Below, in pieces: positions 29,055 to 54,861 of a DNA stretch of 64,000 nucleotides (its first letter is position 1; each line of letters opens with the position of its first letter). The notes beneath the pieces were generated by a model that searched no databases, was not told where the DNA came from, and saw only the letters and a program-made list of their open reading frames with translations. The DNA comes from an uncultured Bacteroides sp. Its GTDB lineage: Bacteria; Bacteroidota; Bacteroidia; Bacteroidales; Bacteroidaceae. A program made the position numbers and the translations under genes. The DNA lies in NCBI RefSeq assembly GCF_963677685.1, contig NZ_OY782186.1:1426001-1490000 (forward strand), given 5' to 3'.

Positions 29055-29290
29055 CACAGGTGTCATTCTTGGTGCCAGCTCTTTTCGAAATGAATACGAT
29101 GGACATACCCTTGAGAAGAGCACCTGGAATAGGTGCATCGGCTGAGGGGAAAAAACATGAAGCGATTAGCCGCAGCTGCATATAACTTCAAAAGAGCCCT
29201 GAGGGTTCTTTGCTCACTCTTAAAAAAGATCAGCGAAACACTCAATATAAGAAATGTTTTGCTGAAATATACTTTTTAAGGGACGAGACT
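29055..29290 (+). pseudogene. IS5-type transposase remnant
   Basis: Fragments in different frames give GVILGASSFRNEYDGHTLE, then MKRLAAAAYNFKRALRVLCS and LLKKISETLNIRNVL, the C-terminal third of an IS4/IS5-type DDE transposase. Stops and a frameshift near 29140 break it. The ending (TTTTTAAGGGACGA) matches the scar at 8371-8512. Confidence 0.7.
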
Positions 29291-29511
29291 ACATGGATTA
29301 TATGGGGGTAGTATATTGGACTTTACTCTGTTTGGCAAGCTCATCTTATAATATATGCCTTATGAAATTTGTGTTTCTCGGGACGGGATTTTGCCTTGGA
29401 CTTCCTTTAGATTCAACCTCACGGAAGACATCCTTGTCTTAAGCTAATGGTTAACTACTACCAATTTTCATAACAGACTTTCACTGTCAAGTTACTAGGT
29501 GTGCGCGGCAC

Positions 29512-29577
29512 AAAAAAAAAGGAGTCACGCCTGACTCCAACCTTTGTTAACCTTAAATCTAATACTATGAAAAACAC
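29512..29577 (-). ncRNA. Small RNA, family copy A
   Basis: On the minus strand TTTG (29612-29609) and TACCTTTG (29589-29582) are 19 bp apart, a full promoter. The predicted 65-70 nt RNA ends with the hairpin GGAGTCAGGCGTGACTCC and nine T. 59 bp (29520-29578) are identical to copy C at 48989-49047. About 21 bp upstream of -33 is the box TTTATAACATGGTTTAATA (29635-29653, given as + strand), shared with copies B and C. No protein is encoded. Function unknown; transcribed small RNA is the simplest reading. Confidence 0.8.
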
Positions 29578-39943: not shown

Positions 39944-40217
39944 CCTGTACCAAGCGTGGTACAGGCAACATGGAGAAGTGGCGGAATTGGTTAGACGCTC
40001 CACCCTAGTGCGTGGGATTGGTTACGTTCGATGCGTACAATTGTAGAGGTGTATAACAAATGCAGGTTCGAATCCTGTCTTCTCCACACGAACCTCAGCG
40101 GAGGGAGTATTTATACAATTTAAACTAGAACTATTGATGATTGGAAAGCCTGCGAAGGTGTCTAAAATCGACCGTAATCCCGGTGCGGCTTGAACGCCTA
40201 TCCGGGAACTTTTTTTT
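39944..40217 (+). ncRNA. Non-coding unit: hairpin, tRNA-like fold, terminator
   Basis: Starts with CCTGTACC/GGTACAGG (39944-39965, 8 bp), then the tRNA-like element 39972-40086, then about 85 nt, then a terminator: TCCCGG...CCGGGA with inner GGC/GCC (40178-40207) and eight T (40210-40217). A -7-like TAGGTTTG lies at 39931-39938. There is no ORF. The whole could be one transcript of about 270 nt. Confidence 0.6.
39972..40086 (+). tRNA. tRNA-like (class II, Leu-type) with abnormal anticodon arm
   Basis: Acceptor GGAGAAG/CTTCTCC is perfect, D-arm GCG-GAATTGGTTAGA-CGC and T-arm GCAGG-TTCGAAT-CCTGT are good. The best anticodon stem TCCAC/GTGGG leaves an 8-nt loop CCTAGTGC without T33, so no sure anticodon can be given. 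The variable region is about 45 nt with an ATTG-TACG/CGTA-CAAT arm. Length is 115 nt against about 87 in normal tRNA-Leu. It may be a decoy, a decayed tRNA, or a tRNA with an inserted piece. Confidence 0.55.
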
Positions 40218-44769: not shown

Positions 44770-45209
44770 AACTTCCCCAGCGCAAGCTCATGGGTTAACG
44801 AGTGGTTCGGGTGCAACACCGATGACAGCCGGAAAGACGGCAACATGGAGTGAAATGGTCACAGGGTGCTAAGACTAACGAATGAAAGTTGCAAGTGTAC
44901 ATAGCAACGGAAGTCGTCAAGACCGTAGCTGAAAGTAGTGAGCTAGTAGATTAAATTCGTGTGATAGGCAAAAGCACACGATCGAAAGACGGAAATCAGA
45001 CGATACTTGTGTGGGTTCGAATCCCACTTACTTCACAAACCCTTGAAGAGAGTGCAAAGCAATAGCGTACAAGCCTTTACTGTTTACGGGTTGCCCGTTT
45101 AAATGTACGGCTGACACGACGGAAAGACGCCGAAGAACTGTAAAGGTGCTATTGTGTAGCACAGTGAAAATGTTGTTTTGCCCTCGACAATCCCGTCGGG
45201 GGCTTTTAA
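44770..45209 (+). ncRNA. Structured 440-nt non-coding block with terminator
   Basis: No ORF. In order: GCCG-GAAAGA-CGGC (44828-44841), GTTGC/GCAAC (44888-44908), a tRNA-like fold (44931-45035), and then a nested domain, AATAG/CTATT (45061-45065 with 45149-45153) and CCTTTAC/GTAAAGG (45074-45080 with 45140-45146), enclosing ACGGG-TTG-CCCGT (45086-45098) and CGGC/GCCG (45108-45132). The end is a terminator GCCCTCGAC/GTCGGGGGC (45180-45203) plus TTTT. The nested long-range pairs argue for a selected RNA. Large phage RNAs such as GOLLD can embed tRNAs; a relation is only a guess. Confidence 0.65.
44931..45035 (+). tRNA. tRNA-like fold inside ncRNA, not a normal tRNA
   Basis: T-arm GTGGG-TTCGAAT-CCCAC (45011-45027) is perfect. 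Acceptor 3' strand TTACTTC-A pairs with GAA(A)GTAG at 44931 with one bulged A. CGTGTG/CACACG (44958-44980) has an 11-nt loop, and ATCG/CGAT (44981-45004) is an extra arm. No normal D-arm and no anticodon can be assigned. Confidence 0.4.
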
Positions 45210-45228
45210 TTGGAAATTCTTATGAATC

Positions 45229-45690
45229 ATGCTATACAAGTACAAGAAGAAAAAAGACAAACCTCTGTTTGATAAAGCAGGGGTAAGAGTAAAAAAGAAG
45301 CCGGATCTAAAAGCAAAGCTCGACAAAGAGTTTTCCCTTTTCATCCGGCTTCGTGATTGTATGCCTAACGGTTATTTCCGTTGCATCTCATGCGGTCAGA
45401 TAAAACCATTTGAACAAGCGGACAACGGACACTATATAAACCGTCAACACATGAGTACCCGCTTTGATGAAATGAACTGTAATGCCCAGTGCCGACATTG
45501 TAATCGCTTTATGGAAGGTAACATACAAAACTACCGTAAAGGGTTGATCGCTAAGTACGGAGAACAGAAAGTTCTCTTATTAGAGGCGAAACAGAGCGGT
45601 AGTCGTAAATATTCAGATTTCGAGTATGAACAACTTATTAAGTATTACAAGGCACTCAATAAGAAACTAAGAAAGGAAAAAGGTATATGA
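45229..45690 (+). CDS. ninG: NinG (Rap) recombination endonuclease
   Basis: 153 aa with the zinc-binding HNH-like core of NinG: CISCGQIKPFEQADNGHYINRQHMSTRFDEMNCNAQCRHCNRFMEGN, four cysteines and the His pair complete. Lambda Rap/NinG cuts recombination intermediates (Holliday junctions, D-loops). N-terminal basic tail as in the family. It comes right behind the terminator of the ncRNA block and overlaps the helicase gene by 4 bp. Confidence 0.93.
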   Translation: MLYKYKKKKDKPLFDKAGVRVKKKPDLKAKLDKEFSLFIRLRDCMPNGYFRCISCGQIKPFEQADNGHYINRQHMSTRFDEMNCNAQCRHCNRFMEGNIQNYRKGLIAKYGEQKVLLLEAKQSGSRKYSDFEYEQLIKYYKALNKKLRKEKGI

Positions 45691-46859
45691 GTTTTATTCT
45701 TCGTGATTACCAGCAAAAGTCCTCTGATTCAGCAGTGGACTTTTTTAATGACAAAAAGAAGAAGCATAATGCCATCATGGTTTTGCCTACTGGATCGGGA
45801 AAATCTCTTGTGATAGCGGATATAGCTTCAAGGCTTGAAGGTCATACTTTAGTGTTTCAGCCCTCTAAAGAAATATTAGAGCAGAACTTCAAAAAGCTGT
45901 GTTCTTATGGTATATTAGATTGTTCAATCTATTCAGCTTCTTTTAATTCAAAGGAAATAAATCGAATAACATTTGCGACTATTGGTAGCGTGAAAGCTCA
46001 TCCAGAGCTCTTTACTCATTTTAAAAACATTATCGTAGATGAATGTCATCTTGTAAACCCTAAAGAGGGTATGTATAAGGATTTCTTCGAGAGCGTAAAT
46101 TGTAAAGTGCTTGGATTGACTGCGACGCCTTATCGTTTGTCATCTAGTCAGGAATTTGGGGCAATGCTAAAGTTTATAACCCGAACAAGACCAAAAATCT
46201 TTTCGGATGTTATTTACCAAGTACAAATATCGACTTTACTTGATCAGGGTTTTCTTTCTAAATTAAACTACTATGATCTACGTCCGACAGGATGGGATAC
46301 TACGAATTTGCGTATAAATACAACGGGCGCCGATTACACAGATAAATCGGTTGTGCGAGAATATGAAAGAATAGATTTTTATAGCTTCTTGGTGAGCATT
46401 GTTCAACGCTTAATGAATCCCATACAAGGAGGAAAGCGCAAGGGCATACTTGTTTTTACTCGTTTTCTCAAAGAAGCCGAACGGTTGACATACTCAATTC
46501 CCGGTTGTGCTATTGTTTCCGGAGAAACACCCAAAGCTACACGTGAGATGATTCTAAAGCAGTTTAAAGCGGGTGAGATTCCTGTTGTCGCAAATGTCGG
46601 GGTTCTTACTACTGGTTTTGATTATCCCGAACTTGATACTATTGTGATGGCCAGACCCACTATGTCACTTGCTCTTTATTATCAGATAGTGGGACGGGCT
46701 ATAAGACCTCACAGAGATAAAGAATCCGGCTGGATCGTTGACCTGTGTGGCAATGTAAAACGCTTTGGCAAGGTTGAGGATCTGAAACTTGTAGAACCAA
46801 AGAAAGGACTTTGGCAAGTTGAATCGAGAGGGCGACAACTTACAAACGTATATTTTTAG
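45687..46859 (+). CDS. SF2 DEAD/DEAH-box helicase
   Basis: 390 aa. Motif I LPTGSGKS (about 33-40), motif II VDECH (DECH type), motif III LGLTATPYR, motif IV GILVFTRF, motif V VANVGVLTTGFDYP and motif VI IVGRAIRPH are all present. It is a small superfamily 2 helicase as found in many phage replication regions, probably for origin opening or recombination. It follows NinG with 4-bp overlap. Confidence 0.92.
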   Translation: MSFILRDYQQKSSDSAVDFFNDKKKKHNAIMVLPTGSGKSLVIADIASRLEGHTLVFQPSKEILEQNFKKLCSYGILDCSIYSASFNSKEINRITFATIGSVKAHPELFTHFKNIIVDECHLVNPKEGMYKDFFESVNCKVLGLTATPYRLSSSQEFGAMLKFITRTRPKIFSDVIYQVQISTLLDQGFLSKLNYYDLRPTGWDTTNLRINTTGADYTDKSVVREYERIDFYSFLVSIVQRLMNPIQGGKRKGILVFTRFLKEAERLTYSIPGCAIVSGETPKATREMILKQFKAGEIPVVANVGVLTTGFDYPELDTIVMARPTMSLALYYQIVGRAIRPHRDKESGWIVDLCGNVKRFGKVEDLKLVEPKKGLWQVESRGRQLTNVYF

Positions 46860-46883
46860 TATAGACTCTAAACCATAAATAAT

Positions 46884-47762
46884 ATGGCAGGAAGACCAAC
46901 AAAACAGGGGATTGACTATTTCTCCATAGATGTAGGTTTCTTTACTGATGTTAAGGTGAGAAAGATTTCGCGAGCATGTGGCGCAAGTTCAACTTCTATA
47001 CTTATTTGCCTGCTATGTAATATCTACAAAGATAATGGGTATTACATTTTGTGGGACGAAGATTTGCCTTTTGTTATTGCTGACACAGTTGGTGTTTCCG
47101 AGGGCGCAGTAAAAGAAGTATTGCTAAAGGCATTACAAGTTGATTTCTTCTCAAAAGATATGTATGATAAGTATAATATACTAACATCAAACGGAATACA
47201 AAAAAGGTTTTTTCTTGCTACTTACCAAAGAAAAGAAACTTCTATTATCAGAGATTATTTAATTGATTGCACAAATAATCCAATTAATTGCATAAACAAT
47301 TCAATTAATCATATTGATAATGAACAAAGTAAAGTAAATAGAAAGAATAGTAAAACTAAAGAAAACTCTACTAACGTAGAGCAAAAGAAAGCCGAACAAG
47401 GTAAAAAACTAGCCGCAGCTAAAGCTGCTACTCTCTCACGTAAAGAAAACTTTTATAAATCTCTAATTCCTTTCGTCAAAACTAATACGGGTGGAAGATA
47501 TAGCAAAGAAATGATACGTGCTTTTTTTGATTACTGGTCAGAGATGAATAAAAGTGAAACTAAGATGCGATATGAAAAACAGCCCACTTGGGAAGTCTCC
47601 AAAAGGTTAGCTACATGGGCAAATAAAGAGAATTTTAATGGAAGAAATAAAAATGCTAATGCTTCCCTCTCAGGTTCGCTCTATTCAGCAAACGAAGAAG
47701 ACGGATCTAACACCGATTCAGAGGGAATTAAAGAACTCATTAACAGCGTCCGAATTGGTTGA
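46884..47762 (+). CDS. DUF4373 (Lin1244/Lin1753-type) replication protein
   Basis: 292 aa. N-terminal domain MAGRPTKQGIDYFSIDVGFFTDVKVRKI, NGYYILWDEDLPF (about 1-115) as in the chromosomal protein at 686, but without the octapeptide repeats. An Asn/Ser-rich linker and a C-terminal domain (about 190-260, RYSKEMIRAFFDYWSEMNKSETKMRYEKQPTWEVSKRLATW) follow. The position between helicase and the next gene fits a replication initiator or loader. Its 3' end overlaps the next gene by over 100 bp. Confidence 0.88.
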   Translation: MAGRPTKQGIDYFSIDVGFFTDVKVRKISRACGASSTSILICLLCNIYKDNGYYILWDEDLPFVIADTVGVSEGAVKEVLLKALQVDFFSKDMYDKYNILTSNGIQKRFFLATYQRKETSIIRDYLIDCTNNPINCINNSINHIDNEQSKVNRKNSKTKENSTNVEQKKAEQGKKLAAAKAATLSRKENFYKSLIPFVKTNTGGRYSKEMIRAFFDYWSEMNKSETKMRYEKQPTWEVSKRLATWANKENFNGRNKNANASLSGSLYSANEEDGSNTDSEGIKELINSVRIG

Positions 47763-48456
47763 ACAGTGGAGTGGCGCTATTGCTCAAATAAATTCTGTTA
47801 CTGATATACAGGTTATTGCAGCTAATAGACAAATACCAACTTTAGCCGATGTATCAATTGCTTTTGGTAATGATACAGTCGTAAAAATCATATCGGAACA
47901 TTTATTTAGCTTATGCAAGAATGCCGATACGGAACTTACTACATACCAGTTTGCGGACACTTCACTGCTTATTGCCACAGAGTATTACTACCTGAACCTT
48001 GCTGAACTATCTTATTTCTTTCGAGGCTGTAAAATAGGCAAATACGGTCAATTAGTATGGGGCAGCTCTCTAAACGTACAACAGATGATGACAGCGATAA
48101 GGCGTTTCTTAATCGAAAGAAATGAAGCTGTTGAGAGGAATGAGAAAAAACTTCTTGAAGAGCGTAAAGCAAAAGGTTTTATAAAAATAGATACGGCAGC
48201 ACAGTCGATTGTGTCCGGCATTGATTCTGTGCGGGAAATTAACAAAAAAGCTAAAAATGATTTTCAAGTGTTTTGCAAACTTTTTCCACATGTCCCTAAG
48301 GGTTATTCCCCTCAAATATGGTGGAATGCCTGGAAAGGAGAGGAAAATGCTTTGAAGTTAATTTATAAGGACAAGCCCCCTTCTTCAAGTGTTGCAGAAA
48401 GGGATATCGGAAAATATCTATGTGAATACAATATGCAAATTGAACGGATGAAATGA
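47659..48456 (+). CDS. Phage replication-region protein, hypothetical
   Basis: 265 aa from Met 47659; in-frame Mets at 47638 and 47653 are alternatives. Either way the gene overlaps the DUF4373 gene by 104-125 bp in another frame, which is unusual. Content: LTPIQRELKNSLTASELVEQW, then IADVSIAFG-like helix, ITEYYYLNLAELSYFFRGCKIGKYGQLVWG-like block, then a helical C-terminus. The Gly-Lys-Tyr-Gly block is seen in Bacteroides proteins of replication modules (DUF6633-like, tentative). A helicase-loader role is plausible from context only. Confidence 0.7.
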   Translation: MLPSQVRSIQQTKKTDLTPIQRELKNSLTASELVEQWSGAIAQINSVTDIQVIAANRQIPTLADVSIAFGNDTVVKIISEHLFSLCKNADTELTTYQFADTSLLIATEYYYLNLAELSYFFRGCKIGKYGQLVWGSSLNVQQMMTAIRRFLIERNEAVERNEKKLLEERKAKGFIKIDTAAQSIVSGIDSVREINKKAKNDFQVFCKLFPHVPKGYSPQIWWNAWKGEENALKLIYKDKPPSSSVAERDIGKYLCEYNMQIERMK

Positions 48457-48635
48457 GATTAACAATCTATTGGGTGACCAAAGATGCACTAAGCATCCGA
48501 CGTATAAGAGAAAAATTTAATCTGTCCTCTTACATATCGATAAATGGTGAAACTCCTGCAGAAATACGTGAGGAAGATCTTCCATTACTTAGAGAAACAG
48601 AAAAAAGAGGATTTATTCAAATAAGAAACAAATGA
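48453..48635 (+). CDS. Small phage protein
   Basis: 60 aa, MRLTIYWVTKDALSIRRIREKFNLSSYISINGETPAEIREEDL in its main part. Alpha/beta small domain without family name. Overlaps both neighbours by 4 bp, so it is translated in the operon. Confidence 0.65.
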   Translation: MRLTIYWVTKDALSIRRIREKFNLSSYISINGETPAEIREEDLPLLRETEKRGFIQIRNK

Positions 48636-48973
48636 AACCAAAGAAACAATTAATAGAAGCCGCCATTGCAGACGGCAGTATGGACCGGATGAATATGCTA
48701 TTATCAGCAGCTCATCTTTTGAACTGTGAAGCAAATAACCTGATCGAGGAAGCTTCTGAGGTAATGCTGAAAAAAGGGCTATTACTAGGCGAGTTGAAAA
48801 TGAAGCATAATGATTTTGTACGTAGTGCGGATAGATACTTTAAAGAGTTTGCAATGATGGTTACTACCGATAAAACAAAGATGAACTTATTCGGGGATAT
48901 GGAAGAGTTTGATAACTCATTTCGTAAATGGGCTAAAGTGCCCGCCGATTGGAAGCCAAAGCCAAAGGAATAG
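48632..48973 (+). CDS. Helical phage protein
   Basis: 113 aa, all-helical (MNMLLSAAHLLNCEANNLIEEASEVMLKKGLLLGELKMKHNDF). Similar to small Bacteroides proteins of replication and conjugation regions, unnamed. Last gene of the rightward early operon; the opposing small RNA C ends 12 bp behind it. Confidence 0.65.
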   Translation: MKPKKQLIEAAIADGSMDRMNMLLSAAHLLNCEANNLIEEASEVMLKKGLLLGELKMKHNDFVRSADRYFKEFAMMVTTDKTKMNLFGDMEEFDNSFRKWAKVPADWKPKPKE

Positions 48974-48984
48974 GTGTAAAATAC

Positions 48985-49046
48985 AAAAAGGAGTCACGCC
49001 TGACTCCAACCTTTGTTAACCTTAAATCTAATACTATGAAAAACAC
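48985..49046 (-). ncRNA. Small RNA, family copy C (in prophage)
   Basis: Minus-strand promoter TTTG (49081-49078), 19 bp, TATATTTG (49058-49051). The RNA of about 62 nt ends with the hairpin GGAGTCA-GGCG-TGACTCC (49007-48990) and TTTTT. 59 bp are identical to copy A. The upstream box TTTATAACATGGTTTAATA is at 49104-49122, then GTTAACGTATTAACATAA. It also forms the convergent end of the early operon. Confidence 0.8.
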
Positions 49047-49223
49047 AGTACAAATATACTGCTATCTAGGATAATGGCAAATTTTGGCTGCTCTGTGACT
49101 TCATTTATAACATGGTTTAATACTATGAAAGGTTTTGTTAACGTATTAACATAATATTGCCCTATGTTAACTTAAATGTCGCTCGTAATATATTAAAATC
49201 CTAGTCAACTTAAATTCACTAAC

Positions 49224-49301
49224 ATGAAGGAATTTATAAAATTCATCTTCTGCATGATTGCATTTTTTGTACTCATGCAGGTAATAACTTATATGATATG
49301 A
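49224..49301 (+). CDS. 25-aa membrane peptide
   Basis: MKEFIKFIFCMIAFFVLMQV... one hydrophobic helix with a Lys start. The stop overlaps the next start (ATGATATGA region), so it is likely translated with the 50-aa frame. Function unknown. Confidence 0.4.
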   Translation: MKEFIKFIFCMIAFFVLMQVITYMI

Positions 49302-49450
49302 TAATAAAAGAAGCAAAGCTAATCGCTGATGATGATTCGCATACTATTATCAGTGAACCGATAGAAACGGATGATCTTGAGAGAACAAGAAAAGAGTTAC
49401 ACGCTATCTATACGTGCGATCGTATATTATTCACTTTTGAAGATAGATAA
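49298..49450 (+). CDS. 50-aa acidic protein
   Basis: ATG at 49298, stop TAA 49448. MIIKEAKLIADDDSHTII, SEPIETDDLERTRKELHAIY, TCDRILFTFEDR. The overlap with the preceding peptide gene and the orderly helix pattern argue for a real gene. No family name. Confidence 0.45.
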   Translation: MIIKEAKLIADDDSHTIISEPIETDDLERTRKELHAIYTCDRILFTFEDR

Positions 49451-49451
49451 C

Positions 49452-49629
49452 ATGAAAACAAGTAATGCTGTTATTATTGGGCATTGCTACGACTTTGGCA
49501 TGTACTAAAGACTATGTTAAACCAGAAGATCTTTATATGGGAATAAAATACTAGATCAAAAGTGATTTTGATTCAGCTTATCACGTAGGGGATAAACCAG
49601 ATGGCAATTATGTGATAAAAATCAATTAG
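49452..49629 (+). pseudogene. Broken small lipoprotein gene
   Basis: ATG at 49452 is out of frame with a typical lipoprotein signal from 49468 on, LLLLGIATTLACTKDYVK. One base removed in ATGAAAACAAGTAATG gives MKKVM before it. After KPEDLYMGIKY there is an in-frame TAG (49552 region), then IKSDFDSAYHVGDKPDGNYV to a stop at 49627. Two lesions in about 60 codons, so it is likely dead. Confidence 0.55.
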
Positions 49630-49736
49630 AAATAGACTTATTAACAAGAATGGAAATTGATAACGGCTTGTTAAGGGTATGATAAATTAGAGGTATAGAT
49701 AAAACCAAGCCTCTAATTATAAAACGTAGCATGAAA

Positions 49737-49967
49737 CTAATAACGAGGAAGGTATATTCCATTAAGGCAGATTTGATAAGATCCTGTTTCTGCCTTTAAA
49801 TTGGGTAGCATAAAATTTGTAGTCTCATTGCCCCTGTACTTATTTCCAATCAATGAATACAATGCTGGATACTGGGCGATATCGAGCGTACGCCCGTCAC
49901 ATTTCATGAATCCGTTTACCTCAAAATCAAAGGCTAATCAAAGAATTTATCCCATAAAGTAGTCCAT
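49737..49967 (-). pseudogene. Tail-collar domain gene with two stop codons
   Basis: On the minus strand, one continuous frame of 77 codons from ATG 49967 to TAG 49737 reads MDYFMG-stop-IL-stop-LAFDFEVNGF, then MKCDGRTLDIAQYPALYSLI and GNKYRGNETTNFMLPNLKAE. This is the phage tail-collar (microcystin-dependent protein) fold: GxxxCDGxxLxIxxxPALxxLxGxxxGGxxxTxFxLPxL. The two stops (TAA in place of an expected Glu codon, TGA) break the N-terminus. Its opposite orientation suggests a leftover of a tail-fibre adaptor. Confidence 0.7.
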
Positions 49968-50118
49968 AATTATAAAAATTGAAAGGTTAATAATCTGACA
50001 AATATAAGAATCATATAACATATTAAATAAATGTTGATGTTTTTAATAAAAAAAACATATTATTGTGTTATTTTATTTATATTTGTTTGAAATTAAATGT
50101 TTAACTAATTATTGGCTT

Positions 50119-50775: not shown

Positions 50776-50823
50776 TATCCATTTTGTCATTTCCTACTGA
50801 CATCAAATGTCAGTAGCTTATTA

Positions 50824-50869
50824 GCTACCGGGTAGCCTATTAGAGGGTTATTCGGTAGCTTTATTTTAT
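50824..50869 (+). terminator. Repeated hairpin, copy 1 (left of cargo)
   Basis: CTACCG...CGGTAG outer stem (about 50825-50859) with inner AGCC/GGGTT-type stem, then CTTTATTTT. The sequence ACCGGGTAG, TTATTCGGTA and CTTTATTTT recurs at 54968-55009. It ends the lipoprotein gene. Confidence 0.65.
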
Positions 50870-50944
50870 ATGAGAATTTATGATCGTATTATTCATCTTG
50901 TGAAAAATAACATGAGTCTTATTCGTCAGAGAATGACGGCATAA
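50870..50944 (+). CDS. Possible 24-aa peptide
   Basis: ATG at 50870 directly after the hairpin, MRIYDRIIHLVKNNMSLIRQ and stop at 50942. Basic, helical; no other support. Confidence 0.25.
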   Translation: MRIYDRIIHLVKNNMSLIRQRMTA

Positions 50945-50970
50945 TAAATATAAATCAATAATTAATATCA

Positions 50971-51066
50971 ATGTTTAATCTAATATGCAATGTGAAAGAT
51001 CGTTTCGAGCAGTTGGTTCAATTGACTTTCTTGTTTAACAACGATAGTGGCAAGGAAGAGGGATAA
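50971..51066 (+). CDS. Possible 31-aa peptide
   Basis: ATG 50971 to TAA 51064, MFNLICNVKDRFEQLVQLTF, then LFNNDSGKEEG. Weak support from position between the hairpin and the tRNA-like element. Confidence 0.25.
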   Translation: MFNLICNVKDRFEQLVQLTFLFNNDSGKEEG

Positions 51067-51106
51067 ACTTTTTTGTATGAATGTGTTGAGAAATATTCAA
51101 TATTTT

Positions 51107-51137
51107 ATTGTTGGGTGTTTCTTATTATTTATATTTG
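51107..51137 (+). promoter_or_regulatory. Promoter of the tRNA-like RNA
   Basis: ATTG (51107-51110), 19 bp, TATATTTG (51130-51137). It ends 10 bp before the acceptor stem of the tRNA-like element, so a separate transcript would begin within a few bases of it. Confidence 0.6.
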
Positions 51138-51147
51138 TTGAAAATAT

Positions 51148-51245
51148 AGGGGATTAGCATTAAGGTGATGCACAGGTACTAACGTAGATTTTATAATAAA
51201 TCTAAGTTATTGCCTGTGAGGCAGGTTCGATTCCTGCATTCCCTA
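51148..51245 (+). tRNA. tRNA-like element with 36-nt insertion in anticodon arm
   Basis: Acceptor AGGGGAT/ATTCCCT (one G-T pair), D-arm GCAT-TAAGGTG-ATGC, anticodon stem ACAGG/CCTGT and T-arm GCAGG-TTCGATT-CCTGC all pair perfectly. The anticodon loop is 36 nt (51177-51212) instead of 7. It folds on as a 4/4 internal loop (TACT/ATTG), AAC/GTT, a G-A mismatch and TAGATTT/AAATCTA around TATAAT. It therefore cannot decode as it stands. Either a short intron or a tRNA mimic. A promoter is directly upstream and the HEPN-like genes start 15 bp after it. Confidence 0.65.
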
Positions 51246-51259
51246 CTAAGATTAATAAT

Positions 51260-52009
51260 ATGATAACAAGAACCAATGCTTATAATACGCTCAAAATCCA
51301 AGTTCAAGAAACTTTTGATTTTGCCGTTATGGTTTGCCATGCCGTCCCTGCCCTTAAACTACAAATGAATTTGTTGGATAAAAGAGAAATAACAAAATTA
51401 TCTTCTCCTGATTATTACACTCCAAATACAACTTCTGAGTTGAGATTACAGGCTAATGGCTATAAAAGTAATTTGGCAACATATCTTTTTTTAAGTTCAT
51501 TTGCTTTTTTTGAAAATTATTTCGGAGCAGTATTAGAAGAGATATTTCTATTTAATTCAGTAATATCTACCGATACTAATTTGAAGAATCGCTTAGATAT
51601 AAACACAAATACAAAAGCTAAAAGAGCACTAAAAAAAGATTACGATAAAAGACATATTCAAAGGTATAAAAAATACTCTGATGAACTTAAAAATAACAAT
51701 TATATAACGCCACAAGAATTAAAGACAATAATAGCTTTCAATAATCTATATAAAACAATTAAGGATTTGAAAGCTAATCAAATTCCTGATTTTTTAATTA
51801 ATTATTTAAAAATAGACATAACGGAAGATGAAAAAAGTGAATTCAACACATATAGACAATTAAGAAATGATATAGCTCATGGTGATAAGCCAATAATTAC
51901 ATTGTCAAAAGTTACAGCTTCAAATCATTTTTTACGAGGCTTAGCCGCCAAAATTGACGAATTTTTATTGGAACATTATGTTACTTTAGATAATTATATT
52001 TGCAAATAA
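51260..52009 (+). CDS. HEPN-like protein (RiboL-PSP-HEPN type)
   Basis: 249 aa, all helical and AT-rich. Near the C-terminus is YRQLRNDIAHGDKP (about 205-218) with the HEPN nuclease motif Arg-Asn-x-x-x-His (RNDIAH). Upstream is SFAFFENYFGAVLEE, the usual first-helix motif of large HEPN proteins. HEPN RNases cut RNA in many toxin and defence systems. It starts 15 bp after a tRNA-like element and is followed by a second HEPN-motif protein. Toxin or defence role is inferred. Confidence 0.7.
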   Translation: MITRTNAYNTLKIQVQETFDFAVMVCHAVPALKLQMNLLDKREITKLSSPDYYTPNTTSELRLQANGYKSNLATYLFLSSFAFFENYFGAVLEEIFLFNSVISTDTNLKNRLDINTNTKAKRALKKDYDKRHIQRYKKYSDELKNNNYITPQELKTIIAFNNLYKTIKDLKANQIPDFLINYLKIDITEDEKSEFNTYRQLRNDIAHGDKPIITLSKVTASNHFLRGLAAKIDEFLLEHYVTLDNYICK

Positions 52010-52075
52010 ATTCAATAATAACATGACGATATAAATATAAAATACGTGGTTTAACAATATATTCACAAAAGTATT

Positions 52076-53314
52076 ATGGCAATTTTAATAAGCGATATTG
52101 ATGAGTTAAGAAAAAGGCTCTTGTATCTTGAAGAACATTTCAATATAGACATATCTGATAATCTATCTATCTTAGAAAATGAAAATATAGAGACACTTGC
52201 CGAAGATATAAACGAAATAGAAATAGCTTTTCCTGATGAGATTGAATTAATATCATACTCTATTGCTGATTTTTGGAAGTATACCAATGATTTGGAAAGT
52301 ATTATAAATCCCAATAAATCAACGGTAAAAACAAATTTTATATGCCAAAAAATTATTACATTGGATGACTTTGAATTTGAAAAGCTAAATGTATCTCGAT
52401 ATACTTTCCGAACGGCAAATTATTCTTTATCAATCATTGAACATCCATTCCTTATTGGTTTGATTGCCTCAAAAGAAGGTCTTTGTGATGATAATTATGG
52501 AATAACTCCATGCTCTTTATACTATGCTATTGAATTAGAGTATTTGAATGAATTTCGACTTATTGAAGAAGAGGAAAATAATATAATTTGTCGATTTCTA
52601 TTTCATATATGTAGCCGCATTGGGTTATCTATAAAAATAGGTGAATTATTTGAATTTCCAGATGAATATTATGATTATGAAGAAGAAGACAGTGAAGAAG
52701 GGGAAATGCAAACTCTTCTTATAACAGAATGCGAGCTTCCTCAATATACTTTAGCTATGGATTATTATGTAGATGCTCTTTCGATACAGAACGAAGAGAT
52801 AAAATATCTATATTTTTATAAAATAATTGAATTTTTTGCACCTATAGTGTCAAAAAAGAGATCATATGAATTATTGAATTTGAAATTAGATACTCTGTCT
52901 GTAAAAAATAGAGATCATAAATATTTAGAATCAATATTTCAATTAACTAGAGATTATGATGTGTCTTTAAAAGATAAAGAATTAACGAACACGGTTTTAT
53001 GTGAATGTATTGATGTTTTGGAAATTTTTGAATATTTACCAACCTCAATAAAGGAACGTCTTTCTAAGGTTATTAAATTTAGAAAAGATGAATATTTGCA
53101 TTTGAAAGGTGAAAAAAATTTAGATCTAAAAAAAGAATTAGGATTATATCTATATTCAACTAGAAATAGTATAGTTCATGCAAAATCTAATTACCAATCG
53201 ACAGGGAATGAGTGCCTTTATGAAGATTTAGCTGAATTGAATATTTTTATGTCAAAGCTTTGCCATTGTTTAATTGTATGGAATGGTCGTCAAGCAAGAG
53301 AATACCAAGTATGA
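52076..53314 (+). CDS. Protein with C-terminal HEPN-like (ApeA-type) motif
   Basis: 412 aa, acidic and AT-rich. The N-terminal 200 residues give no recognised domain. The C-terminal part (about 240-400) is helical with IQNEEIKYLYFYKIIEFFAP and YLYSTRNSIVHAKSNYQ. The RNSIVH motif (Arg-Asn-x-x-x-His) and the YFYKIIE helix resemble ApeA-HEPN domains. It follows the other HEPN-like gene by 66 bp, probably in one message. A paired sensor and RNase is possible. Confidence 0.65.
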   Translation: MAILISDIDELRKRLLYLEEHFNIDISDNLSILENENIETLAEDINEIEIAFPDEIELISYSIADFWKYTNDLESIINPNKSTVKTNFICQKIITLDDFEFEKLNVSRYTFRTANYSLSIIEHPFLIGLIASKEGLCDDNYGITPCSLYYAIELEYLNEFRLIEEEENNIICRFLFHICSRIGLSIKIGELFEFPDEYYDYEEEDSEEGEMQTLLITECELPQYTLAMDYYVDALSIQNEEIKYLYFYKIIEFFAPIVSKKRSYELLNLKLDTLSVKNRDHKYLESIFQLTRDYDVSLKDKELTNTVLCECIDVLEIFEYLPTSIKERLSKVIKFRKDEYLHLKGEKNLDLKKELGLYLYSTRNSIVHAKSNYQSTGNECLYEDLAELNIFMSKLCHCLIVWNGRQAREYQV

Positions 53315-53582
53315 TGTGTCAGACCTATTGAATTTGATAAACCATATACATTTAGTGTTGAAGTTTATTGGCAGATAATTACATTGTAGCTAGATTGTAC
53401 GTTTTCATGATTGGCTTATAGGTTTCTTTGCTACTTTCTTTCCCGCTCAGGCTCATGAAAGAACGTCTCTAAATGGAGCTCTGCTCGGTCTAGATTACAG
53501 TTCTGCAAAATTATCAATATCACATTCCAATATAATTTTTCATATAAGGTTGCTTTAGATTGCCAAAGTAATTGCCTCGCTC

Positions 53583-54185
53583 TCATTTACTGAGTAGTCT
53601 TTTATATTTTTCGTATGTATTATAATAAAAAAAGTATGAGATTACTATAATAAAAAAACAAGCAAGAAATTCGACTAATGAGCAAGGGCTTTTACTAAAA
53701 CAAATAAGCCCTTTTTTAACACAAATCCCTATAAATACTATCAGTTGAAGAATTGAGATGATCCAGAAAAATATGGCATAAAAATTAGGTAAGTAGGACC
53801 AAAATCCTTTTCCTGAAGGATTATATAAATATCCGAACACATCATCGTATTCTTCACCAAGTTCTTTTTTTCGTATTCTCATGTTTAGGGTTTGGTCTCT
53901 TCTAAATGCATATCCTAGATGAAGAATGATAAGGTTTAATAATAGAAGTACTAGTAATACAACTAAAGTTACAGTAATTAGTATCGAATTAGATACATAC
54001 ATACCTTGTATGTATGTATGCGCATAAGGAATGCTGTCTGTTGTATGTACGTATGTGTATCCAAACCCTCCGAATAAGACTAAGAGAGCAATAAGTAATT
54101 GTATAAATAGAGCTTGATGGTGATTTTGGTTTTCAGCGAATTGTTCATGAATTGAATTAAGTATATTATTTCTGATCCTTCTCAT
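53583..54185 (-). CDS. Four-helix membrane protein
   Basis: 200 aa with hydrophobic segments at about 27-47, 68-92, 133-155 and 172-190. The N-terminus is cytoplasmic by charge (MRRIRNN). No family. Opposite strand to the HEPN-like genes and alone, as phage cargo genes often are. Superinfection exclusion is a guess. Confidence 0.6.
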   Translation of the reverse strand: MRRIRNNILNSIHEQFAENQNHHQALFIQLLIALLVLFGGFGYTYVHTTDSIPYAHTYIQGMYVSNSILITVTLVVLLVLLLLNLIILHLGYAFRRDQTLNMRIRKKELGEEYDDVFGYLYNPSGKGFWSYLPNFYAIFFWIISILQLIVFIGICVKKGLICFSKSPCSLVEFLACFFIIVISYFFYYNTYEKYKRLLSK

Positions 54186-54303
54186 AATTTTTTGAATGTA
54201 AATACGTAATGTTGTTCTGTAATTGTATCTGACTAAAGTCTATGAAAAATAATGGATTAATAAAAGTCTTTTGTTGGCAACGTGAAGTTATTACTCTTTA
54301 ATT

Positions 54304-54861
54304 CTATTGAGCATGCTTCCCTATTAAAGGTTGCAGCTTCTTTGCAAAATAGACCTCTAAAGATGGCATAAGGTGATACATGCCTTCGTTTATTTCAAGA
54401 GCGTGGAGCTTTAGTTTTAAAGATAGTGGCTTTGCCCAGTGATACAACTGTAAACCATGATCAGTACAATCTTTATGATAACCTAAGTGTTGAATAACCC
54501 TACCCCAAAAACAAGCTTTGACTTTACCTACATATAACGTTCTTGTTGAATTATGATCGTAATAGTTTAAAGCGGGTGTTGGTCTTCCAAAGGGCTCTTT
54601 TTTATATTTCTCAAATGCTGCTAATATTATTACATTATCTATATCAGAAAGTATTTCATACCAATAAATTGTTTGGCGAGTTATAGCTTCAAGTTCTTCA
54701 AATAGCTTTTCATATTTAGGCGCTTTTCTAATATCAGTCGTTAAATAGTTTTCTAATTCTGAACAGTCAATATCAAAACAATACTCTTTAATTCCATTTT
54801 GGCTAATATTTTTTAAGCCTTTAATGGTCTCTTCTGTGAATGATTCTAATAGTGAATTCAT
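54304..54861 (-). CDS. GIY-YIG-like protein
   Basis: 185 aa. The C-terminal part (about 100-165) has TLYVGKVKACFWGRVIQHLGYHKD and LQLYHWAKPLSLKLKLHALE. The pattern of Tyr-Val-Gly-Lys, an Arg-x-x-x-His helix and a later beta strand suggests a GIY-YIG-type nuclease fold. The N-terminal 95 residues are helical and unknown. It belongs to the cargo segment; a defence or homing function is possible. Confidence 0.55.
   Translation of the reverse strand: MNSLLESFTEETIKGLKNISQNGIKEYCFDIDCSELENYLTTDIRKAPKYEKLFEELEAITRQTIYWYEILSDIDNVIILAAFEKYKKEPFGRPTPALNYYDHNSTRTLYVGKVKACFWGRVIQHLGYHKDCTDHGLQLYHWAKPLSLKLKLHALEINEGMYHLMPSLEVYFAKKLQPLIGKHAQ

Follow-up and report, generated by a model that had tools for sequence, protein, structure and literature searches.

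In classical ToxIN, a type III toxin–antitoxin system, the antitoxin RNA is encoded in tandem repeats that are followed by a terminator and then by the toxin gene. To our knowledge, none of the HEPN enzymes PrrC, RloC and Cas13a has a tRNA-shaped RNA gene as its partner. These three enzymes cut the anticodon loops of tRNAs, as two papers state (PMC3710099, PMC11042736). In AbiF, the adjoining ncRNA binds and neutralizes the HEPN toxin, according to two further papers (PMC12373285, PMC12737573). Bacterial immunity has tRNAs among its targets, and phages can counter with tRNAs that they carry themselves, as three reports describe (PMC10264068, PMC11555353, PMC12409363).

We analyzed a 64,000-nucleotide stretch of DNA from an uncultured Bacteroides sp.; this whole stretch is called the window here. 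It contains an RNA gene of about 98 nt with the cloverleaf of a tRNA, which adjoins a gene for a HEPN protein (HEPN1). The locus resembles AbiF/AbiFr (RCd22 in C. difficile; Cas13-related) in that a HEPN protein with RxxxxH is encoded next to a structured ncRNA, and also in its setting, which is a prophage both in C. difficile and for the window copy. The differences are that HEPN1 belongs to PF18735 and has no Abi_2 match (Pfam, E up to 1), that the RNA here is a cloverleaf of about 98 nt as against 36–37 nt for the abiF motif (PMC12373285), and that in one subfamily of our family (subfamily 3) the RNA lies downstream of the gene. The abiF RNA itself (RF03085) was absent from the window at the gathering score and from positions 50800–52000 at E up to 1. 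Type III toxin–antitoxin systems (ToxIN and others) likewise combine a predicted endoRNase with an adjoining small RNA, but here the RNA is present once and no terminator separates it from the gene. Because the AbiF features tested and the ToxIN layout both fail, we do not count the locus as a member of either system, though it would work alike. PrrC, RloC and Cas13a share the HEPN family with HEPN1, and tRNA, their known target, is the target proposed here; HEPN1 differs in having no further Pfam domain above the cut-off. The Bacillus cereus pseudo-tRNA tRNAOther is comparable in being tRNA-like, outside translation and beside a genomic island, but its description, as listed, names no HEPN gene and no insert in the anticodon arm (PMC3399842). 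Among the literature matches listed, all open-licence papers judged by title and by the opening of the abstract, none describes a HEPN gene paired with a tRNA-shaped RNA, and PMC12165695 gave no passage on AbiF, ncRNA or tRNA.

A cloverleaf RNA with a prolonged anticodon arm

The features of the locus are as follows.

51108–51137, plus strand: possible promoter, with TTG at 51108–51110 (by eye), a 19-nt spacer and TATATTTG at 51130–51137; weak evidence
51148–51245, plus strand: tRNA-like RNA without an anticodon (tRNA model; fold z −5.3; kept at eight further HEPN loci)
51148–51154, plus strand: 5′ strand of the acceptor stem, pairing with 51238–51244 (7/7 pairs standard in the nine elements)
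51157–51171, plus strand: D arm, loop with GG (GG in 9/9 D-loops)
51173–51216, plus strand: anticodon arm, made of a 5-bp stem and the insert 51178–51211 (arm alone −16.5 kcal mol−1; covariation among the six close elements)
51221–51237, plus strand: T arm, loop TTCGATT (TTCGA in 9/9)
51238–51245, plus strand: 3′ strand of the acceptor stem and discriminator A, then C but no CCA
51260–52009, plus strand: HEPN1, 249 aa, RiboL-PSP-HEPN (PF18735), with RNDIAH at residues 202–207
52076–53314, plus strand: HEPN2, a HEPN-like ORF of 412 aa (RNSIVH by eye; MauJ at E 4e−4, sub-threshold)

The RNA adopts a cloverleaf of the tRNA type and measures 98 nt up to the discriminator base. In a genome-wide scan, the Rfam tRNA model matched it with 40.4 bits (gathering score 29), and the match ended exactly at 51148 and 51245. 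Neither of the two whole-Rfam scans (the window; 50800–52000 at E up to 1) listed a tRNA at this position, and ARAGORN called a tRNA-Met alone in the window. With short flanks, the element folds at −39.7 kcal mol−1, and none of 200 shuffles was as good. A chance hairpin was rejected as a reading of this RNA.

The acceptor stem has 7 bp, one of them G–U, the D stem 4 bp (51157–51160/51168–51171), the anticodon stem 5 bp (51173–51177/51212–51216, the last pair being U–G) and the T stem 5 bp (51221–51225/51233–51237). The variable loop is 4 nt long. In place of the 7-nt anticodon loop, the insert prolongs the anticodon helix, with single mismatches, into a hairpin with a 6-nt loop, and the RNA is thus without an anticodon. 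The insert measures 34 nt if the U–G pair is counted as stem and 36 nt otherwise. A preliminary description of this DNA had reported a tRNA with a hairpin instead of the anticodon loop; the stems are as it described them, and its lengths of 36 nt and 98 nt hold.

The nearest host tRNA is Ala-TGC, which shares 48 identical aligned positions with the element (comparison with 30 tRNA loci, including some identical copies). With so few, the element is no recent copy of the compared tRNAs. These 30 host tRNAs, taken from 61 tRNA-model matches in the genome, all have a C after the discriminator, and 3 of the 30 have CCA. The end of the RNA and the start codon of HEPN1 are separated by 14 nt.

The same description had given the RNA its own promoter. 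TAnnTTTG is the −7 promoter motif of Bacteroidetes, and TATATTTG fits it, starting 18 nt and ending 10 nt upstream of the RNA. The motif is present, but the case for a promoter is weak: shuffling gives 0.46 matches per 300 nt by chance, and among seven upstream regions the motif lies within 20 nt of the RNA in the window and in one distant relative (L053) only.

Recurrence beside related HEPN genes

The close relatives of HEPN1 (subfamily 1) number 27 proteins among 5.8 billion searched. When 84,980 species genomes were scanned with two patterns, five loci (L002–L006) emerged, in Galbibacter orientalis, Aquimarina aquimarini, Paucihalobacter ruber, a Chitinophagales MAG and Dyadobacter sp. SG02, and in all five the RNA lies directly upstream of the HEPN gene. 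A covariance model (R1) was built from the six elements of the window and L002–L006. It found one strong copy in each of these six genomes (114–129 bits, the copies used for building), and its remaining matches there did not exceed 45 bits. At five such weaker sites, ARAGORN called true tRNAs at L010, L017, L018 and L019 but not at L011 (20.6 bits); some other weaker matches were the antisense strand of the element.

Three more distant loci stood outside the building set of R1. L053 (subfamily 2) was the one further locus among 222 genomes of one family. Its protein of 315 aa is 31–35% identical to nine subfamily-1 rows of alignment A4, and its RNA lies directly 5′ of the ATG. R1 matched this RNA with 61.8 bits (E 3e−16) and the Rfam tRNA model with 48.9 bits, the ends agreeing with those set by hand. 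L057 and L060, from 298 and 52 genomes, represent a third subfamily of about 271 aa, in which the order is the reverse of that in subfamilies 1 and 2: the RNA overlaps the HEPN stop codon at L057 (2149–2249) and lies within 2 nt after it at L060 (1393–1489). With filters off, R1 matched them with 38.9 bits (E 1.8e−9) and 38.2 bits (E 2.9e−9), respectively, and they fold with z −3.6 and −4.0; the Rfam tRNA model fell below the E 0.01 threshold at both. In sets of 397, 390, 13 and 65 genomes, which overlap in part, no new locus appeared at E 1e−20 or 1e−15.

L063, a relative from a viral contig with 39% identity to L060, has no tRNA-like RNA at its locus. By eye, this phage-contig HEPN relative (L063:3901–4830) carries GGGGTCAGAT-type repeats on both sides.

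The RNA is therefore present in nine of the ten family members with DNA (window included). It stands 5′ of the gene in seven (six in subfamily 1, one in subfamily 2) and 3′ in two, both of subfamily 3. The preliminary description had suggested looking for the same element at other HEPN loci, and it was indeed found at each close locus and at three of the four distant ones, L063 being the exception. Since the element recurs at related HEPN loci, the RNA and the first HEPN gene form a unit. The pairing occurs in several Bacteroidota lineages; RNA and HEPN are the conserved core, and the RNA may precede or follow the gene.

The nine RNAs measure 97–101 nt to the discriminator, with inserts of 32–36 nt. 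Over 21 core pairs, all 187 cells are standard and 17 of the 21 columns changed on both sides, as compared to a shuffled expectation of 137.8 (sd 4.0) cells and 7.1 (sd 1.9) columns (0 of 2000 as high); these counts use hand-set stems, which lean towards structure, and sequences that are related to each other. The stems were divided by hand because a MAFFT alignment of the nine misplaces those of L057 and L060; for these two, the D stem was set at 3 bp and the variable loop at 3 nt. Within the six close RNAs, pairing is seen in 96.6% of 204 cells; changes on both sides affect nine pairs, three of them in the insert hairpin. A mostly paired insert hairpin is seen in eight of the nine RNAs, and the inserts of the window, L003 and L057 share one layout (6 bp, mismatch, 4 bp, mismatch). 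The insert of L053 is 33 nt long and forms no hairpin; with its flanks, this element folds no more stably than shuffled sequence (z −0.67; 42 of 200 shuffles equal it). A paired arm that resists cleavage is thus not universal.

The protein sequences were also surveyed for N-terminal extensions. The survey covered 99 proteins (subfamilies 1 and 2, plus a few that are more distant; four without the anchor motif were left out). Seven of them have an extension of more than four residues, every one in subfamily 2. All seven extensions carry a T-arm signature (GSSP, VRIL, RFDS, WFES) 8–10 residues upstream of the usual start. By chance, the signature is expected in 7–22% per extension, with a product of 7e−7, which is optimistic because the pattern was written after these proteins were seen. 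One of the proteins, P0028, is not independent of L053, with which it shares 94% identity. Subfamily 3, where 16 of 63 proteins lack the anchor, gave a single extension (P0133) with a short FKP match, which we read as chance.

A search with PF18735 in 395 Bacteroidota genomes found 47 with a match, the window's own included. From the matches listed, 30 loci were taken as a control set, 29 of them besides the window. With default filters, R1 had no match at E 0.1 at these 29 loci. The control was repeated with filters off because the default filters miss L060 too, and this gave two weak matches at E 1, neither of them tRNA-like by eye; a strongly diverged RNA could escape this control. One of the two, at L023 (20.8 bits), lies some 590 nt past the HEPN stop codon and is a simple hairpin, and the other, at L038 (17.7 bits), has no T-loop by eye. 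ARAGORN called no tRNA at the 29 loci.

Among viral contigs, neither HEPN1 or HEPN2 nor the A4 and A7 profiles had a match. The same was true of blastn with 51000–53400 against phages and of tblastn with the three HEPN types against phages and plasmids. In 100 relatives of the window's genome, the match was in the genome itself only. The element pattern matched once in viral contigs (L007); the match falls within a long ORF, the contig is rich in G+C, and we read it as chance.

HEPN1 and possible roles of the RNA

The preliminary description had placed two HEPN genes behind the RNA. The first is clear: HEPN1 matches PF18735 in the Pfam scan with E 1.2e−13 and 51.9 bits (curated cut-off 28.4), and no other domain was found above cut-off. 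R202, N203 and H207 of its RNxxxH motif are invariant across 56 sequences; R226, N227 and H231 are invariant across 39 sequences. At E 0.01, PF18735 matches 25 of the 45 members of alignment A4, and L053 itself is unmatched. The structure model of HEPN1 has a pLDDT of 88.9, and a Foldseek search gave no match at E 0.001 or better. The family profile A4 had no match among PDB sequences at E 1, NCBIfam had none for four proteins, and PHROGs had none for HEPN1 or HEPN2. The PADLOC matches of HEPN1 are weak (CARF_HEPN, E 3e−4; DRT-associated HEPN, E 0.0034), and the latter model matches 4 of the 39 members of alignment A6 at E 1e−3 or better.

The second gene, HEPN2, is less clear as a HEPN gene: beyond the motif seen by eye and the sub-threshold MauJ match, no Pfam family reaches its curated cut-off. 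It is probably outside the unit of RNA and HEPN1, because the ORF lists of L002–L006, inspected by eye, hold no similar ORF beside HEPN1. Two minus-strand ORFs beside HEPN2 (53583–54861) have no Pfam family above cut-off.

We read the conserved pair as an RNA antitoxin and a HEPN toxin, with the RNA as a predicted uncleavable decoy in the tRNA-binding site. This reading was chosen because AbiF, with its neutralizing RNA next to the gene, is the nearest precedent, and we consider it about equally likely to be right or wrong. The earlier suggestion of a decoy or sensor fits. HEPN1 would be an active RNase directed at tRNAs, and probably at their anticodon arm: the decoy retains the acceptor, D and T arms, and with them what tRNA-binding proteins recognize, but not the loop cut by anticodon nucleases, which a paired arm replaces in most copies. 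RNase P and the 3′ maturation enzymes would free the RNA from a joint transcript, and the RNA would then bind the HEPN enzyme and hold it off real tRNAs. As there is neither a terminator nor a set of antitoxin repeats, an excess of RNA over protein must come from this putative processing. A phage that shuts off host transcription or attacks tRNAs would thereby deplete the RNA; HEPN would then cleave tRNAs and bring translation to a halt, as in abortive infection.

We tentatively extend this to an immune switch based on a tRNA mimic, in which a decoy with a longer, mostly paired arm silences a HEPN anticodon nuclease and the loss of the decoy arms it; we see this as possible rather than probable. 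If it is true, the nuclease would be armed by whatever a phage does to destroy tRNAs or halt transcription. A tRNA mimic on the side of the host or prophage would mirror the trick of phage tRNAs, and a new RNA shape would join the Cas13-related systems of HEPN plus RNA. Within the literature matches listed, this would be the first toxin–antitoxin or defence family with a tRNA-shaped RNA partner. The pair of a 98-nt RNA and a 249-residue protein is compact and directly testable. It also illustrates that tRNA-like genes overlooked by a tRNA finder can partner predicted toxin genes.

The RNA could instead be a cofactor or guide that HEPN binds and perhaps trims, the complex being the active nuclease or the recognizer of a phage signal. 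A conserved pairing of RNA and protein is equally expected in that case, and an insert whose sequence differs per subfamily at a constant 32–36 nt is what a variable recognition part might look like. A review (PMC12737573) also derives Cas13 from AbiF, in which a HEPN protein binds an ncRNA. However, the insert is mostly paired in all RNAs but that of L053, which leaves little free for guiding, and the tRNA-like body suggests recognition of tRNA; we regard a cofactor or guide as rather doubtful.

It is unlikely that the RNA is a cis element through which tRNA-type processing of the joint transcript sets the level, the 5′ end or the 3′ end of the HEPN mRNA. Processing at the 3′ end would trim the leader, given the short distance to the start codon of HEPN1, and the C after the discriminator is as in the 30 host tRNAs. 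Yet the RNA of subfamily 3 is downstream of the gene, and a processing signal would not require the length of an insert to stay constant.

A functional tRNA whose anticodon loop is interrupted by a very short intron, the spliceable tRNA considered in the preliminary description, is not supported. The remaining tRNA parts are intact, and the Rfam tRNA model scores well above its gathering score in both the window and L053. However, U33 (a T at the second insert position) is found in four of the nine RNAs and no anticodon is common to them, so translation is unlikely to be the job of this RNA. The sequence of the insert also varies between subfamilies, and ARAGORN called no tRNA at any of the nine elements. 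We hold a tRNA of this kind to be very improbable. A tRNA remnant at the integration site of a mobile element is hardly credible: some copies do have mobile or phage surroundings, but the cloverleaf is full, carries compensatory changes across nine loci and always abuts the same gene family.

Genomic surroundings

The window copy lies inside a prophage on a 3.3-Mb contig, with replication genes (NinG, helicase, initiator) on one flank and genes for packaging (both terminase subunits, small and large) on the other. Over 29% of positions 44800–50000, the DNA is distantly similar to that of Bacteroides phage BS-TP2. For the relatives, nine hand-picked proteins from L002, L003, L004, L006 and L060 were scanned with PADLOC. 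Seven of these neighbors, none of them more than 6 kb from the HEPN gene, matched models at E 1e−5: a methyltransferase and an MvaI-type restriction enzyme at L002, a DRT reverse transcriptase and PD-Lambda-3_B at L003, PDC-S37 and a GmrSD-type protein at L004, and an OLD-like ATPase at L060. The two without a PADLOC match at this threshold are the protein from L006 and one of those from L004. Some copies are thus in prophage or defence-gene surroundings.

At L002 (5859–6790), the block of RNA and HEPN is bounded by GTTGGCAACAAGC before and GCCAGTTGCCAACAACG after it. By eye, the blocks of L002–L004 have similar ends and slightly resemble a mobile gene cassette; in L002 a group II intron then follows.

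The prophage of the window holds a second odd tRNA-like gene at 39972–40086, which the Rfam tRNA model matches with 40.4 bits. By eye it resembles a tRNA-Leu; its anticodon loop has 8 nt and its variable region is long. It was rejected as an element of the HEPN type (R1, 17 bits), and it has no match in phage records. A sub-threshold match to a FopS-type sRNA (33.3 bits) precedes it. The minus strand carries part of a group II intron and two FopS family sRNAs (29264–29577 and 48980–49046).
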